NCBI RefSeq assembly: GCF_024721305.1
Contig: NZ_JAMXOD010000004.1
Span: 62,001-126,000, forward strand
Origin: Aequitasia blattaphilus
GTDB lineage: Bacteria; Bacillota; Clostridia; Lachnospirales; Lachnospiraceae
Length of the DNA stretch: 64,000 bases
Direction of reading: 5' to 3'
Shown here: piece after piece, positions 29,180 to 34,530 of the stretch
Position numbering within the stretch: the first letter of the stretch is position 1
Layout of the letters: each line of letters starts with the position of its first letter
Notes under the pieces: generated by a model
Told to the model about the DNA's origin: nothing
The model's input: only the letters and a program-made list of their open reading frames with translations
Databases searched by the model: none
Position numbers and translations under genes: made by a program

Positions 29180-29913
29180 TAGGAGATATCCTGTAAAAAT
29201 AGTCCCTTTGAATCACAGGGAGTACTTGGTTTTGCTGTTCCGCTGAAAATCTTCGTGATATCCTCTTTTTTTCTTGTGCCAAATCCGATTTCCAACAAAG
29301 TTCCAATAATAATGCGTACCATATTATAAAGGAAATCATCTGCATGAATTAAAATCTGGAGCTCTTCATTATCTCCATAAATCTCAATCTCAAATATTTC
29401 TTTTATCGTCGCTTTATTGGATTTTCCAGTAGAAAAATTTTGAAAATCATGTTGACCAACCAGTAACATAGAAGCTTCTTTCATAGCAAGCTGATCAGGC
29501 TCTTTAAAACAGTAGAATGTATGTTTTCGGTCAAAGACACTAGGGACGTCACTAATTGTCATTCGGTATAGATAGGTTTTGGAACGGGCATTTAATTTTG
29601 CGTGAAATCTTTCGGGAACTTCTTTTACGTTTACAATTGCAATATCCATAGGAAGATATTTGTTCATATAATGTTTCATATCCGCGATTACCATCGTGGA
29701 ACAAGTTTTGAAATTTGCATATTGAGAATAGGCGTGTACGCCAACTTCTGTACGAATTCCACCGTATAATTCTACATCTGTTTCATCTGTCATCTTTTTT
29801 ATTACTTCGATTATTTTATGAGAAATAGTGTTGGTGGAGACTTCACTTCCGTGACGTGACCAGCCCTGGTATCTACTTCCATCGTATTCAATTTTTAATA
29901 ATATATTTCGCAT
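29176..29913 (-). CDS. truA: TruA-type tRNA pseudouridine synthase with Asp-to-Glu change at the catalytic site
   Basis: This 245-aa protein has the whole TruA fold: EYDGSRYQGW at residues 9-18, RFHAKLNARSKTYLYRM near 103-119, and DDFLYNMVRIIIGTLLEIG near 207-225. TruA makes pseudouridine at positions 38-40 of tRNA anticodon arms. The catalytic motif, normally GRTDAGVHA, reads IRTEVGVHA (54-62), so the nucleophilic Asp is replaced by Glu56 (GAA, codon 29748-29746). The enzyme may be inactive, may use Glu, or may be a paralogue with a changed role, with the true TruA outside this window. The start ATG lies behind AAAGAGGTAA. Confidence 0.85.
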   Translation of the reverse strand: MRNILLKIEYDGSRYQGWSRHGSEVSTNTISHKIIEVIKKMTDETDVELYGGIRTEVGVHAYSQYANFKTCSTMVIADMKHYMNKYLPMDIAIVNVKEVPERFHAKLNARSKTYLYRMTISDVPSVFDRKHTFYCFKEPDQLAMKEASMLLVGQHDFQNFSTGKSNKATIKEIFEIEIYGDNEELQILIHADDFLYNMVRIIIGTLLEIGFGTRKKEDITKIFSGTAKPSTPCDSKGLFLQDISY

Positions 29914-29958
29914 TACATTTACCTCTTTGCAAGTTTAGTAACAGTATAACAAATCTTA

Positions 29959-29967
29959 TGTTACAAT
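29959..29967 (+). promoter_or_regulatory. Extended -10 element upstream of the thioesterase gene
   Basis: TGTTACAAT fits TGnTATAAT at one mismatch and lies 45 bases before the thioesterase start. No clear -35 box is visible. Confidence 0.45.
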
Positions 29968-30011
29968 GAAAGGGACAAAGATTACCAAAAATTTAATGGA
30001 GAGACAAATCA

Positions 30012-30488
30012 ATGAATGAAAAGACTAGAACAGTAGCAGACTCTTTAGTTGAAACCGTGCATTTTGTGAGATTAAATCACCTAAATGGGGCGGGTAGACT
30101 TTTTGGAGGAGTATTAATACAATGGATTGATGAGGTGGCTGCTCTTGTAGGCAGACGCCATGCAAAAACCAATGTTATTACTGCGTCGGTAGATCATCTT
30201 GACTTTATACAGTCTGCCCATCAGAATGATGTGATTGTTGTGATTGGCAAAGCAACCCATACAGGAAATACATCTATGGAAGTGCGAGTAGATACCTTTG
30301 TAGAGCTTATGGATGGTTCCAGAAAAAAAATCAACAGAGCTTTTTTTACAATGGTTGCATTAGATGAAAATGACAAACCCACACCACTGCCAAAACTGGA
30401 AATTCAGACAAAAGAGGAAGAAGAAGAGTGGGAAAGAGCAAATCAAAGAAAGGCCGAGCGAAAGAGACGAAAGGAGATTGGATTTTAA
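30012..30488 (+). CDS. Acyl-CoA thioesterase, hotdog fold (YciA/BACH type)
   Basis: This 158-aa protein is a single-hotdog acyl-CoA thioester hydrolase. Typical features are the N-terminal LNHLNGAGRLFGGVLIQWIDEVAAL (near residues 21-45) with the catalytic Asp/Glu region, the helix VDHLDFIQSAHQNDVI near 66-81 and TGNTSMEVRV near 90. The C-terminus is highly charged (many Glu, Lys and Arg). AATGGAGAG precedes the ATG. It probably controls acyl-CoA pools; substrate chain length cannot be read. Confidence 0.85.
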   Translation: MNEKTRTVADSLVETVHFVRLNHLNGAGRLFGGVLIQWIDEVAALVGRRHAKTNVITASVDHLDFIQSAHQNDVIVVIGKATHTGNTSMEVRVDTFVELMDGSRKKINRAFFTMVALDENDKPTPLPKLEIQTKEEEEEWERANQRKAERKRRKEIGF

Positions 30489-30517
30489 CACGTGACCTAC
30501 ACTTTTGACTTCACAAA

Positions 30518-30526
30518 TGTTATAAT
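30518..30526 (+). promoter_or_regulatory. Extended -10 promoter upstream of the DUF1538 gene
   Basis: TGTTATAAT is a complete extended -10 element 33 bases ahead of the TTG start. A TTGACT lies only 10 bases upstream, too close to serve as its -35 box. Confidence 0.55.
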
Positions 30527-30558
30527 AGCAAAGAATATATGAAAGTGAGGATGATTGT

Positions 30559-32094
30559 TTGAAGAAACTGTTTAAAGAAAAGATGAAAGAGTCCATTGCC
30601 TCGGTATTGCCGATCACCCTCATTGTTTTGCTTCTCAGTGTTACCTTAGTTCCTTTAGAAACTGGAGTTATGGTATTGTTTTTATTTGGAGCGGTGCTTC
30701 TGATTATGGGGATGTGCTTTTTTACCTTAGGAGTAGATATGTCCATGACACCCATGGGCGAAGGTATTGGTATACAGATGAGTAAAGCAAAGCATATGAT
30801 TGGTCCGGTTGTTATTTGTTTTATACTGGGTGTAATTATTACTTTGGCGGAGCCGGATTTACAGGTACTTGCGAATCAAATACCTTCGGTGCCCAATCTG
30901 GTTTTGATTATTGCTGTTTCAATCGGTGTTGGTGTGTTTTTAGTTGTTGCATTATTACGTATCTTATTTAAAATCAGGTTATCAGTTCTTCTTGTTGTGT
31001 TCTATGCAATCGCACTAGTTGTTTCGATGTTTGCTCCCCAAGATTTCGTGCCTGCAGCTTTTGATTCAGGCGGAGTTACCACAGGACCCATTACGGTTCC
31101 GTTTATTATGGCTTTTGGTATTGGTTTGGCGACCCTGCGTAGTGATAAGGATTCCGGGGATGACAGCTTTGGATTGATTGCCCTTTGTAGTATTGGTCCG
31201 ATTTTAGCCGTTTTGCTATTGGGAATCTTCTATAATCCAGAACCGGCAGCTCAGGAGACCAGTATCGTAAGTGTGGCAACAACAATGGAAGCAATGCACG
31301 CGTTTCGATCAGAAACGCCTCATTACTTGAAAGAAATATCTCTGGCACTTCTGCCTATTGCTGTTATTTTCGCACTATTTCAGATGATATATCGTAGATT
31401 CCACAAGGCGAAGCTTTTGAAGGTTGTGATAGGATATTTGTTTACCTATGTGGGTCTGGTTATCTTTTTGACGGGAGTAAATGTTGGGTTTATGCCAACA
31501 GGACAGTTGATTGGCGAACGATTGGCAGGAGGTGGGTTTAAGTATCTGCTGATTCCAATCGGTATGATAGTTGGGTACTTCATTGTTGCTGCAGAGCCGG
31601 CAGTACACGTGCTGAAAGCTCAGGTTGAAGAAATATCCAATGGGTTAATTTCTCAAAGTGCCATTCAATACAGTCTTTCCATTGGAGTTGCATTTTCAGT
31701 TGGACTTTCCATGGTGCGAATTTTATTCGACCTTCCCCTTTTCTTATTTTTGTTACCAGGATATCTTATTGCATTAACCCTAAGCTTTTTTGTACCACCT
31801 ATTTATACCGGTGTTGCATTTGACTCCGGTGGTGTTGCCAGTGGACCTATGACAGCAACATTCTTGCTGCCTCTTGCCATGGGTGCCTGCCAGGCTGTTG
31901 GAGGGAATATTATGACCAATGCATTTGGTATTGTAGCAATGGTTGCCATGACTCCACTGATTACGATTCAGGTTTTAGGTTTCCGAGCAGAGTTAAAAAG
32001 AAAAGCAGTCAGAAGAAAACTGCGAAGACGATTGGAAGCTATGGAAGATACAATGGTATATTATGATGATACAAACAATGAGGTAAATGAATAA
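30559..32094 (+). CDS. DUF1538 family integral membrane protein
   Basis: This 511-aa protein of unknown function has about fourteen hydrophobic segments arranged as two homologous halves. The repeat is visible in GVDMSMTPMGEGIG and GVNVGFMPTGQLIG, and in AFDSGGVTTGPITVPF (near 168) and AFDSGGVASGPMTATF (near 420). Such paired, glycine-rich re-entrant-like stretches are typical of secondary transporters. The start is a TTG with GTGAGG 8 bases upstream. The stop overlaps the start of a PII-like gene by one base (TAATG), so the two proteins are made together. Transport is inferred. Confidence 0.85.
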   Translation: MKKLFKEKMKESIASVLPITLIVLLLSVTLVPLETGVMVLFLFGAVLLIMGMCFFTLGVDMSMTPMGEGIGIQMSKAKHMIGPVVICFILGVIITLAEPDLQVLANQIPSVPNLVLIIAVSIGVGVFLVVALLRILFKIRLSVLLVVFYAIALVVSMFAPQDFVPAAFDSGGVTTGPITVPFIMAFGIGLATLRSDKDSGDDSFGLIALCSIGPILAVLLLGIFYNPEPAAQETSIVSVATTMEAMHAFRSETPHYLKEISLALLPIAVIFALFQMIYRRFHKAKLLKVVIGYLFTYVGLVIFLTGVNVGFMPTGQLIGERLAGGGFKYLLIPIGMIVGYFIVAAEPAVHVLKAQVEEISNGLISQSAIQYSLSIGVAFSVGLSMVRILFDLPLFLFLLPGYLIALTLSFFVPPIYTGVAFDSGGVASGPMTATFLLPLAMGACQAVGGNIMTNAFGIVAMVAMTPLITIQVLGFRAELKRKAVRRKLRRRLEAMEDTMVYYDDTNNEVNE

Positions 32095-32792
32095 TGGCAG
32101 AAAAAAATAAACAATGCAAACAAAGGATGTCCCTTTTGATTTCGATTGTGGACAGAGGTAGGGGCAATTCAACTATAAAACTTTATATGGAACATAATTT
32201 ATTTTGCCATACCTTCGTTGCAGGAGAAGGAACCGCATCGGCAAAAATGATGGATATGCTTGGACTTGATGTGCAGGAGAAGGATTTAATTATCAGCATC
32301 GGTTCAACAAAACTAATCCAGTGTATTCTGGATGAATTTGGAAATGATCGTGTAAGTCGTAAGATAAAAAGCAGTGGTATTGTTTTTTCTATGGGATTAG
32401 ATGCGTTAAATTCTCTGGTGGCCATTGTAATTAATGAACCTGTAATTAAAGAAAATTATTGTGGGGTGAGATATATGGATAAAGATAAAAAGAACAACAG
32501 TTTAATTGTTGTCTCAATAAACCAAGGATATACAGATGAGATGATGAAAGCAGCGAGAAAAGCAGGAGCCAGAGGTGGAACGATTGTCAGAGGCCGATGG
32601 GCCGATGGGGAGCATTTGGAACAATATCATGGAATTACATTGCAAGATGAAAGGGAAATGGTATTTATTCTTACGACATCGGAAAAGAAAAACGAAATAA
32701 TGGACACGATTAATCAGGATTTTGGACTTATGTCTGATGCAAACGGGATTATTTGTAGTGTACCTGTAGAAGCAGCTGTTAAATTGAATTAA
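32094..32792 (+). CDS. Tandem PII-like signalling protein coupled to DUF1538
   Basis: This 232-aa protein appears to consist of two GlnB/PII-like domains in one chain. The first (about residues 10-115) has SLLISIVDRGRGN and GEGTASAKMMDMLGLD. The second (about 130-232) has SLIVVSINQG, the strongly PII-like GARGGTIVRGRW, and the closing GIICSVPVEAAVKL. PII proteins sense nucleotides and carbon/nitrogen state and often control membrane transporters by direct binding. The one-base overlap with the DUF1538 gene suggests that it regulates that protein. Ligand and partner are inferred. Confidence 0.75.
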   Translation: MAEKNKQCKQRMSLLISIVDRGRGNSTIKLYMEHNLFCHTFVAGEGTASAKMMDMLGLDVQEKDLIISIGSTKLIQCILDEFGNDRVSRKIKSSGIVFSMGLDALNSLVAIVINEPVIKENYCGVRYMDKDKKNNSLIVVSINQGYTDEMMKAARKAGARGGTIVRGRWADGEHLEQYHGITLQDEREMVFILTTSEKKNEIMDTINQDFGLMSDANGIICSVPVEAAVKLN

Positions 32793-32794
32793 TC

Positions 32795-32828
32795 AAGCGC
32801 TGTCAAGAAAAAACACTTGACAGCGCTT
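32795..32828. repeat. 13-bp perfect inverted repeat overlapping the ylxM-ffh promoter
   Basis: AAGCGCTGTCAAG (32795-32807) and CTTGACAGCGCTT (32816-32828) are perfect complements with an 8-base spacer. No T tract follows. The right arm contains the -35 box TTGACA, so it may be an operator, and as RNA it may also protect or end the upstream transcript. Confidence 0.8.
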
Positions 32829-32845
32829 CGAGTCTGTACTATGAT
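32817..32845 (+). promoter_or_regulatory. Promoter of the ylxM-ffh operon
   Basis: TTGACA (32817-32822), a 17-base spacer and TATGAT (32840-32845) match the consensus at 11 of 12 positions, 16 bases ahead of the ylxM ATG. The leader is therefore very short. Confidence 0.8.
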
Positions 32846-32861
32846 TACGTAGGTGATAGTT

Positions 32862-33176
32862 ATGAATCGAATTTTAGAACAAAATTTATTATATGATTTC
32901 TACGGAGAATTGCTGACGAAGAAGCAAAAGGATGTATATGAACGTTTCGTTATTGAAGATTTTTCATTAAGTGAGATTGCAGAAGAGATGGAAATATCGA
33001 GACAAGGTGTCCATGACATGGTGAATCGAAGCTTAAAGACTTTGAAAGATTATGAAGAAAAATTACATCTGGTAGAAAAATTTTTATACATGAAAGAAAA
33101 ATTAATTGAAATTAACCACAGTAATGAATTGAAAGAAATCAAGATGATTTCGGAAGAATTATTAAGGGAGTTATAA
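32862..33176 (+). CDS. ylxM: YlxM/p13-like DNA-binding protein
   Basis: This 104-aa protein of the YlxM family has a sigma-70 region-4-like helix-turn-helix (LSEIAEEMEISRQGVHDMVNRSLKTL, about residues 38-63) and a helical C-terminal tail. It is almost always encoded beside ffh and has been linked to the signal recognition particle. I chose the ATG at 32862 with TAGGTG 6 bases upstream rather than the GTG at 32853. Its stop lies one base before the ffh start. Its exact role is not settled. Confidence 0.88.
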   Translation: MNRILEQNLLYDFYGELLTKKQKDVYERFVIEDFSLSEIAEEMEISRQGVHDMVNRSLKTLKDYEEKLHLVEKFLYMKEKLIEINHSNELKEIKMISEELLREL

Positions 33177-33177
33177 T

Positions 33178-34530
33178 ATGGCATTTGATAGTTTGACTGA
33201 AAAACTACAAAATATATTTAAAAACCTAAAAAGCAAAGGACGTTTGACAGAAGCGGATGTAAAAGAAGCGTTAAAAGAGATTAAAAGAGCATTACTTGCA
33301 GCTGATGTTAACTTTAAAATCGTTAAAGACTTTGTAAAAAAGGTTGAAGAAAGAGCAATTGGCCAAGATGTTATGACGGGTCTAAACCCGGGACAAATGG
33401 TGATAAAGATTGTAAACGAAGAGCTGGTTGATTTAATGGGTGCTGAGACAACCGAGATTAAGTTTGAACCAGGAAGCGCGATCACAGTTATTATGATGGC
33501 CGGTTTACAGGGTGCAGGTAAAACGACTACCACTGCAAAGCTGGCAGGCAAGTTTAAGTTAAAGGGCAAGAAACCTCTCTTGGTTGCTTGTGACGTGTAT
33601 CGACCGGCAGCAATCAAACAATTGCAAGTAAATGGTGAAAAGCAGGGCGTAGATGTGTTTTCAATGGGAGAGAATCACAAACCATGGGACATTGCCAAAG
33701 CTTCCATTGAGTATGCAAAGAAAAACGGAAATAATCTTGTGATTTTAGATACGGCTGGACGTCTTCATATCGATGAGGACATGATGGATGAATTGATAAA
33801 AATCAAAGATGAAGTTAGTGTCCATCAGACGATTTTAGTGATTGATGCAATGACAGGTCAGGATGCCGTTAATGTTGCGAAAGAATTTAATGATAAAATT
33901 GGTATTGATGGTGTAATCGTCACGAAATTAGATGGTGATACCAGAGGTGGTGCGGCTCTTTCTGTTAAAGCAGTTACCGGAAAACCAATTCTTTATGTTG
34001 GTATGGGGGAAAAGCTTTCGGATTTGGAACAATTTTATCCGGATCGCATGGCCTCACGAATACTCGGTATGGGAGATGTACTTTCTCTTATTGAGAAGGC
34101 AGAAGCTCAAATAGATGAGGATAAAGCAAGAGAAATGGGAGAGAAGATGAAAAAAGCTTCCTTCGATTACAATGACTTCCTCGAAGCTACAAAGCAGATG
34201 AAAAATTTGGGTGGACTTGGCAGTATTATGAATATGCTACCTGGAATGGGAGGCGGGGCTCTTGGTAAAATGAAAGGGCTTTCTGACGACCAAACCGATG
34301 AAGCCGAAAAAAACATGGCTAGAATGGAAGCAATGATTTATTCTATGACTCCCCACGAAAGAGAGAATCCAGACGTTCTTAATCCCTCTAGAAAACATAG
34401 AATTGCCAGAGGAGCAGGGGTAGATATTAGTGAAGTAAACCGTATGAATAAGCAGTTTAATGAAATGAAGAAAATGATGAAAAGTGTGACCAAAGGTGGT
34501 AAAAGAGGAAAGTTCAAACTTCCCTTTTAA
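33178..34530 (+). CDS. ffh: Signal recognition particle protein Ffh
   Basis: Ffh (450 aa) binds signal peptides and the 4.5S/6S SRP RNA and targets ribosomes to the membrane through FtsY. The N domain is followed by the GTPase domain with G1 GLQGAGKTTTTAKLA near residue 107, G3 DTAGRLH near 190 and G4 TKLDGDTRGG near 245. The methionine-rich M domain contains LPGMGGGALGKM and the RNA-binding SRKHRIARGAG near 400. The start ATG follows GGGAG. It is part of a ribosome and secretion cluster. Confidence 0.97.
   Translation: MAFDSLTEKLQNIFKNLKSKGRLTEADVKEALKEIKRALLAADVNFKIVKDFVKKVEERAIGQDVMTGLNPGQMVIKIVNEELVDLMGAETTEIKFEPGSAITVIMMAGLQGAGKTTTTAKLAGKFKLKGKKPLLVACDVYRPAAIKQLQVNGEKQGVDVFSMGENHKPWDIAKASIEYAKKNGNNLVILDTAGRLHIDEDMMDELIKIKDEVSVHQTILVIDAMTGQDAVNVAKEFNDKIGIDGVIVTKLDGDTRGGAALSVKAVTGKPILYVGMGEKLSDLEQFYPDRMASRILGMGDVLSLIEKAEAQIDEDKAREMGEKMKKASFDYNDFLEATKQMKNLGGLGSIMNMLPGMGGGALGKMKGLSDDQTDEAEKNMARMEAMIYSMTPHERENPDVLNPSRKHRIARGAGVDISEVNRMNKQFNEMKKMMKSVTKGGKRGKFKLPF

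Follow-up and report, generated by a model that had tools for sequence, protein, structure and literature searches.

A conserved unit of a DUF1538 membrane protein and a divergent PII-fold protein: a candidate PII-gated cation/proton antiporter with predicted inverted halves

Here we describe a pair of overlapping genes in a stretch of 64,000 nucleotides from Aequitasia blattaphilus (the window). The first gene encodes a DUF1538 membrane protein of 511 amino acids (aa) and the second a protein with two PII-fold domains (Table 1). We find that the pairing of DUF1538 with a PII gene is near obligatory. We further consider it rather probable that the pair is a conserved unit in which a divergent PII protein, acting from the cytosolic side, gates a DUF1538 cation/proton antiporter, and in which the two halves of the antiporter are inverted relative to each other. 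An earlier reading of the window, made from its sequence only, had described a repeated membrane protein and an overlapping gene of 232 aa. This description is confirmed, as the membrane protein contains two DUF1538 domains and the two genes overlap by one base.

The co-occurrence of the two genes was analysed in a sample of 398 genomes of the phylum, where the PII subfamily was defined by a profile (A6, E≤1e-8). DUF1538 is present in 139 of these genomes and the PII subfamily in 141, with both found in 137 (Fisher p 2e-99, kinship ignored). DUF1538 occurs alone in two genomes (G205, and G453, where the gene lies at a contig end), and the PII subfamily occurs without DUF1538 in four (G150, G198, G354 and G516). 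Among 150 genomes of the GTDB family, PII and DUF1538 are each present in 46, and in all 45 genomes that share them the two genes are at most ~0.4 kb apart by the listed coordinates. When the genome_contigs set was searched with DUF1538, the best 80 of 555 loci, which are mostly from Clostridia and near the Clostridia query, had a PII gene behind DUF1538 at 79 loci, and the 80th ends with its contig. We then fetched 100 regions (L151–L250), six of which are hand-picked family loci (L245–L250). All 99 DUF1538-to-PII junctions in these regions are on the same strand (95 without the hand-picked regions), and 76 of the 99 overlap if counted from the first possible starts of the open reading frames (ORFs), which inflate both overlaps and N-terminal tails. 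The unit is found on plasmid records of Peptoclostridium, Paraclostridium and Vescimonas. It is also present in two records of Alphaproteobacteria, from Methylocystis and Chelativorans, where the DUF1538 gene is split and the PII is single; the Chelativorans record annotates no more than a 90-aa piece for the first of its two DUF1538 genes. In these plasmid records, the PII gene is named 'P-II family nitrogen regulator'. The proposal of a transport system with a PII partner, which had been made from the window sequence, is thus supported across genomes, as the PII-fold protein is dedicated to the transporter and inherited with it, and the two genes are far from being rare neighbours.

The membrane protein of the window is a member of DUF1538 (PF07556, 455.3 bits in two stretches, cut-off 22.6). 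Whereas the sequence-only reading knew of no assigned substrate, the family includes a described transporter: according to the report on UmpA and UmpB of Halomonas zhaodongensis, both are DUF1538 proteins that together rescue Escherichia coli KNabc by Na+(Li+,K+)/H+ antiport, and neither is active alone (PMC5484666). The window protein has the same make-up of one A-type and one B-type domain, where the equation of A with UmpA and of B with UmpB rests on gene order and family, as our tree is without Halomonas sequences. From family homology, we infer that the substrate is Na+, Li+ or K+ in exchange for H+. The protein scores 168.3 and 141 bits against the UmpA and UmpB equivalogs (NF041627 and NF041628), which is below the cut-offs of 490 and 500, and the five relatives tested likewise fall below these cut-offs. 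The transporter might then carry something else, such as ammonium or an organic ion, and the PII might report nitrogen or carbon status, as PII proteins classically do. We regard this as unlikely, since antiport of Na+, Li+ and K+ against H+ is the activity of the only characterised DUF1538 members that we found, and a machine-learning study lists DUF1538 among its top 20 genes for optimal growth pH (PMC13255231). In addition, the classical ATP/2-oxoglutarate residues Q39 and K90 are gone from the partner (see below), and the window genome already encodes another PII, of classical appearance, that is fused to an AmtB-like protein.

A structure model of the DUF1538 protein reached a predicted local distance difference test score (pLDDT) of 92.7 and a predicted template modelling score (pTM) of 0.90. 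Searches of the PDB with this model (Foldseek, VIA-align) gave no confident match; because the two-domain model was searched whole, we do not claim a new fold for DUF1538. Both halves carry invariant acidic residues (E98/D169 and E346/D422) to which a functional role may be ascribed. Among 75 aligned sequences, F168, D169, G171, G172, T174, T175 and G176 are invariant in the motif of the A half, and A420, F421, D422, G424, G425, V426, S428 and G429 in that of the B half.

The sequence-only reading had seen two PII domains in the second protein. This claim stands for the fold, as a structure model and fold matches give the PII/CutA (ferredoxin-like) fold in both halves. It does not stand for profile searches, where Pfam P-II (PF00543) matches the C-terminal half only, with 22.2 bits at a cut-off of 25. 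The first half was matched by none of Pfam, NCBIfam, phmmer against the PDB and the A6 profile, and it is thus recognised through structure and relatives. All 23 A6 domains match P-II at E≤0.1, the C-terminal half of the window protein included, and the first member is above the cut-off. Furthermore, 63 of 76 tandem proteins match P-II at E≤0.01, and a profile of the single PIIs reaches PII chains in the PDB (best match 9p1x_H, E 2.8e-7).

We compared the ligand residues of 163 DUF1538-linked PII domains in a MAFFT alignment, with the window genome's own classical-looking PII domain as the reference. Several positions are kept, namely T29 (149 domains), G35 (159), G89 (158), F92 (154) and a K or R at position 58 (162). 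Other positions are changed: Q39 is found in 1 domain and a K or R in none at position 90, in 1 at 101 and in 21 at 103. The single case of K at 101 is the second PII domain of the window, which has I at 90 and ends before 103. In classical PII proteins, the basic residues at 90, 101 and 103 bind phosphate and Q39 is a contact for Mg and 2-oxoglutarate. Since Q39 and K90 are lost, the classical ATP/2-oxoglutarate switch is unlikely in the DUF1538-linked PIIs. The suggestion that the protein reads ADP/ATP, cAMP or 2-oxoglutarate has to be narrowed; other nucleotides may still be read, and the ligand may be AMP-like, cAMP-like or a metal. Compared with classical PII, the T-loop of these proteins is shortened by about five residues, and the single PIIs beside A-B pairs have His instead of Q39 in 21 of 21 cases. 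In the first PII domain of the window, G27 is replaced by C and G37 by A. DarA/PstA is PII-like, and K+ transport is a c-di-AMP (cyclic di-AMP) theme. As a ligand, c-di-AMP was nevertheless not favoured, since the unit is also present in Alphaproteobacteria, where c-di-AMP is, to our knowledge, not usual. Elsewhere in the window genome (L003, G000:C2:7003-7317, minus strand), a classical-looking PII domain is joined within one ORF of 570 aa to a protein that we take, from its sequence, to be AmtB-like.

The PII-fold protein could instead be a metal or redox sensor in the manner of CutA or PII-NG that acts against cation stress, and not a direct gate. We give this little credence. A C-terminal His is found in just 2 of 44 second domains of the fused forms, and His39, although present in 28 of these 44, is not found at that column in the window. 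Moreover, a protein that is almost always linked to one transporter family is more likely to be its direct partner.

The architecture of the unit varies. Regions of the phylum sample were drawn from the DUF1538 places among the matches listed. If DUF1538 domains are written as D and PII domains as P, the complete units comprise 39 D2-P2, 1 D2-P1-P1, 16 D1-D1-P2, 7 D1-D1-P1-P1, 21 D1-D1-P1 and 6 D1-P1. These counts exclude the hand-picked loci as well as eight cut or odd units (L158, L168, L204, L207, L228, L235, L244 and L156, the last having a 100-aa partial match 2.4 kb upstream of an A-B-P1-P1 unit); L242, L243 and L244 are second places of three genomes. Together with eight fetched later, there are 14 lone D1-P1 units. 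In 11 of the 14 genomes, this gene is the only DUF1538 match, and one lone-unit genome, G447, consists of one contig and is given as 99% complete. Two PII domains are found in 40 of 40 fused units with an adjacent PII, in 23 of 44 split pairs and in none of the 14 lone genes. Fusion correlates with PII copy number both without the hand-picked regions (40:0 vs 23:21, Fisher p 6.6e-8) and with them (43:0 vs 24:21, p 4.8e-8). Some units occur in a row: region L192 (G225) has D2-P2 twice, regions L196 (G286) and L206 (G252) have D1-D1-P1 twice, and L210 (G524) has a lone D1-P1 unit immediately followed by a fused D2-P2 unit.

We next consider the orientation of the two domains. We aligned 195 DUF1538 domains, with loop borders taken from the A half of the window protein, and calculated a charge bias as the K+R count of the even loops (N-tail, L2, L4, L6) minus that of the odd loops (L1, L3, L5, C-tail), with tails of at most 16 residues. 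The bias is positive for A domains, both fused (mean +6.7, 44 of 44 above zero) and split (+3.7, 45 of 46), and negative for B domains, both split (-4.5, 44 of 47 below zero) and fused (-5.3, 44 of 44). The bias of A is higher than that of B in all 90 pairs, and the two lie on either side of zero, with A positive, in 86 of 90 (86/86 and 82/86 without the hand-picked loci). The lone domains (n=14) have a mean bias of +0.7 (range -1 to +5, with L208 at +5) and of +0.07 in the inner loops; they differ from A and from B with Mann-Whitney p of 2e-7 and 1e-8, kinship ignored. The eight loops can be divided into two sets of four in 70 ways, and the best separation of A from B is given by the alternating division (10.0 vs 8.9 for the next). 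By the positive-inside rule, the N terminus would be inside for A and outside for B and, with seven segments in each, the fused chain would be an inverted repeat. We thus strongly infer that A and B are oppositely oriented. A dual-topology family is expected to have pair members of opposite bias, which we observe, and balanced singletons, which we observe with 16-residue tails. The lone DUF1538 genes look like dual-topology homodimers, and the single, paired and fused forms appear to be the singleton-pair-fusion series of a dual-topology family. We did not find such a series described for DUF1538 in the open-licence literature, and the words topology, antiparallel and inverted are absent from the accessible part of the UmpAB paper (PMC5484666).

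The descent of the domains was inferred from a tree of 184 DUF1538 domains (quick IQ-TREE, midpoint root) with support from the Shimodaira-Hasegawa-like approximate likelihood ratio test (SH-aLRT) only, without bootstrap. Both this tree and the tree of PII domains, as well as the charge table, include L247–L250 (8 of the 195 domains in the charge table). The A domains and the lone domains lie on one side of a branch with SH-aLRT 99 and the B domains on the other. Of the 44 fused proteins, every first half falls into the A clade and every second half into the B clade, and there they form clades of 45 rows (support 98 and 99). Each of these two clades also includes the split row L248, a fused gene that carries an in-frame stop and was counted as split. 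Since the fused halves fall into single A and B clades, the window protein is an A-B fusion of one origin. The PII tree (163 domains, quick IQ-TREE without bootstrap, midpoint root) has few columns and many open forks. It requires only two label changes for the first-of-two domains, and the single PIIs group with the second-of-two domains. This fits an old duplication after which the first copy diverged or was lost.

The sequence-only reading had proposed that an internally duplicated PII matches an internally duplicated channel. In such a model, each PII domain docks to one half of the channel. The copy numbers of the two partners do vary together at the extremes, with two PII domains in every complete fused unit that has an adjacent PII and one in each of the 14 lone genes. 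The split A-B pairs represent the unfused state of this transporter. They break the match, however, as 21 of them have one PII and 23 have two. In addition, the fusion arose once, so that the whole fused class counts as one event and the match of the duplications may be ancestry; we therefore do not take the link between fusion and PII copy number as functional evidence. An internally duplicated channel is not supported either, as the two halves derive from the old lineages of UmpA and UmpB, which were joined a single time, and loop charges predict opposite orientations for them. The cytosolic face would then present different surfaces of A and B, and the PII could not dock to both halves by simple symmetry. 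We thus consider the matched duplication distinctly improbable.

Our favoured reading of a PII-gated antiporter can be set out as follows. The DUF1538 protein would be a secondary cation/proton antiporter whose A and B domains, with seven transmembrane (TM) segments each, are inserted oppositely and form an inverted repeat. The tandem PII may sit on the cytosolic face, and its T-loops would close or open the antiporter in response to a small molecule or ion bound between subunits. The PII would thereby reduce or permit cation/H+ exchange according to a cytosolic signal. Docking and gating would resemble those of SbtB on SbtA and of GlnK on AmtB: SbtB is reported to bind the cytosolic face of SbtA and to insert its T-loop into the cleft between the domains, in the same manner as GlnK in AmtB (PMC8352866). 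Docking, inhibition and ligand control are thus proposed by analogy only. Our boldest suggestion, which is tentative, is that DUF1538, of unassigned fold, may preserve a living series from a dual-topology homodimer with one PII, via an antiparallel heterodimer that has either one PII or two, to the 7+7 inverted repeat of the fused chain with its tandem PII. In an antiparallel pair, the PII would meet only one of two nearly equivalent faces, so that the one-sided partner may break the symmetry and give the pair direction or control. The PII would then represent a class that is not of the ATP/2-oxoglutarate type and that serves monovalent cation and pH homeostasis.

Several observations weigh against a PII-gated antiporter with inverted halves. 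The cloned Halomonas fragment ended after umpB and was yet active in E. coli (PMC5484666), so that the PII of the donor is dispensable for activity; the PII could be an inhibitor or have another job. The scores of the window protein far under the UmpA and UmpB cut-offs mean that its substrate may differ. Ligand binding may be lost in the second PII domain of the window, as it has W and D at G35 and G37. The lone set includes close kin, with four members from genus g289 and two from g322. With whole tails, A and B still separate, but the lone domains have a mean bias of +2.4 with 9 of 14 above zero and are not neutral; their neutrality holds only with 16-residue tails or inner loops, because the N-terminal starts are uncertain and N-extensions are doubtful. 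A search of 316 DUF1538-bearing ORFs, where overlapping loci are counted repeatedly, gave no natural fusion of DUF1538 with PII. Finally, one genome (G367, L204) has a fused DUF1538 without an adjoining PII and a tandem PII on another contig, and in three genomes the PII subfamily adjoins a CitMHS-type transporter instead of DUF1538. These three genomes, the four of 398 with PII but without DUF1538, and a PII in region L264 (G251) with no DUF1538 ORF found in the surrounding 7 kb would fit an operon of convenience whose PII acts elsewhere in the cell, which we deem very improbable given the co-occurrence over many families of the phylum, the same-strand adjacency and a linkage that outlasts gene fusions and fissions on both sides.

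The unit can be compared to several known systems. UmpAB is of the same family, requires both an A and a B domain with seven predicted TM segments each, and its genes overlap by one base in the published locus (PMC5484666). In the window, in contrast, A and B form one chain that is followed by a PII gene, and the scores are far below the UmpA and UmpB cut-offs. The words PII and P-II are absent from the accessible parts of the two DUF1538 texts (PMC5484666 and PMC13255231), and neither was found in that of a cable-bacteria paper that names UmpAB (PMC12093952). The Na+/bicarbonate symporter SbtA with the PII-like SbtB differs in that SbtA belongs to another family with 5+5 TM segments, SbtB has one domain, and the expected partner in the window unit is a cation/H+ antiporter. 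AmtB-GlnK likewise combines a PII with a channel and offers the T-loop plug as a model mechanism. However, DUF1538 is not Amt, the window-type PII lacks the classical Q39 and K90, and the window genome has a separate gene in which AmtB-like protein and PII are joined. PII-NG with CzcABC (Geobacter GSU2134) is similar in that a non-classical PII is encoded beside a proton/cation antiporter; the transporter is of another class, and PII-NG is described with one PII domain. CzcABC belongs to the RND (resistance-nodulation-division) class. Fluc, EmrE and other dual-topology families share the singletons, the pairs of opposite charge and the fused inverted repeats, but DUF1538 has seven TM segments per domain, so that fusion is possible without an extra linker helix, and it is linked to the gene of a soluble regulator.

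What is known of PII proteins mostly concerns the reporting of nitrogen, carbon and energy status. If our reading is true, a PII subfamily with changed ligand residues on a cation/proton antiporter would extend their role to ion and pH homeostasis, in a unit that is present in about one third of the sampled phylum genomes. DUF1538 would also be a rare clean record of the origin of an inverted-repeat transporter, with single, paired and fused forms and an odd number of TM segments. Nearly all these forms keep the same soluble partner.

Table 1. Features of the DUF1538-PII unit in the window
Feature	Position	Strand	Basis
DUF1538 protein, 511 aa	30559..32094	+	PF07556 twice, E 2.7e-137
UmpA-type domain (residues ~1-225) fused to UmpB-type domain (~242-494)	within 30559..32094	+	DUF1538 tree
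AFDSGGVTTGP motif, A half	31057..31089	+	sequence
AFDSGGVASGP motif, B half	31816..31848	+	sequence
K/R-rich stretch K480-R491 past the last TM segment of the B half	31996..32031	+	translation
TAATG, stop codon of the transporter gene overlapping the start codon of the PII gene by one base	32092..32096	+	sequence
Tandem PII-fold protein, 232 aa	32094..32792	+	structure model and fold matches
First PII-fold domain, residues 11-118, diverged copy	32124..32447	+	
Second PII-fold domain, residues 133-232, groups with single-PII relatives	32490..32789	+	

Some members of the PII subfamily are found beside other genes. In the three genomes with a CitMHS/ArsB-like transporter, the PII lies 123-218 bases upstream of the transporter (442-445 aa) on the same strand (L251 3158-5092, L252 3494-5358 and L253 1828-3705, in G516, G495 and G466). 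These CitMHS-linked PIIs lack three residues at the apex of the T-loop (GRGTAV---KLLLGI vs GRGTGIHEQKKLLGI), which suggests partner-specific T-loops. The subfamily PII of L264 (3203-3550) is single, and upstream of it lies an ORF of 837 aa with repeated C-terminal domains, presumably a proton-translocating transhydrogenase beta subunit. In addition, L245 (G013) contains a PII fragment without DUF1538 and L246 (G010) a DUF1538 fragment without PII; both are possible remnants of the system.

Lastly, we looked at the surroundings of the pair in the window. An Rfam search of 29900-33200 matched no RNA element, and the counts of promoter-like and terminator-like motifs around the pair are near chance level. 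The K480-R491 stretch, with nine K+R after TM7, is predicted to be cytosolic by the positive-inside rule. On the 3' side of the PII gene, at 32795-32828, lies a perfect 13-bp inverted repeat (AAGCGCTGTCAAG / CTTGACAGCGCTT). It overlaps the TTGACA of a promoter-like TTGACA-17-TATGAT that stands before genes we take to be ylxM-like and ffh, and it is possibly an operator or a shared hairpin.

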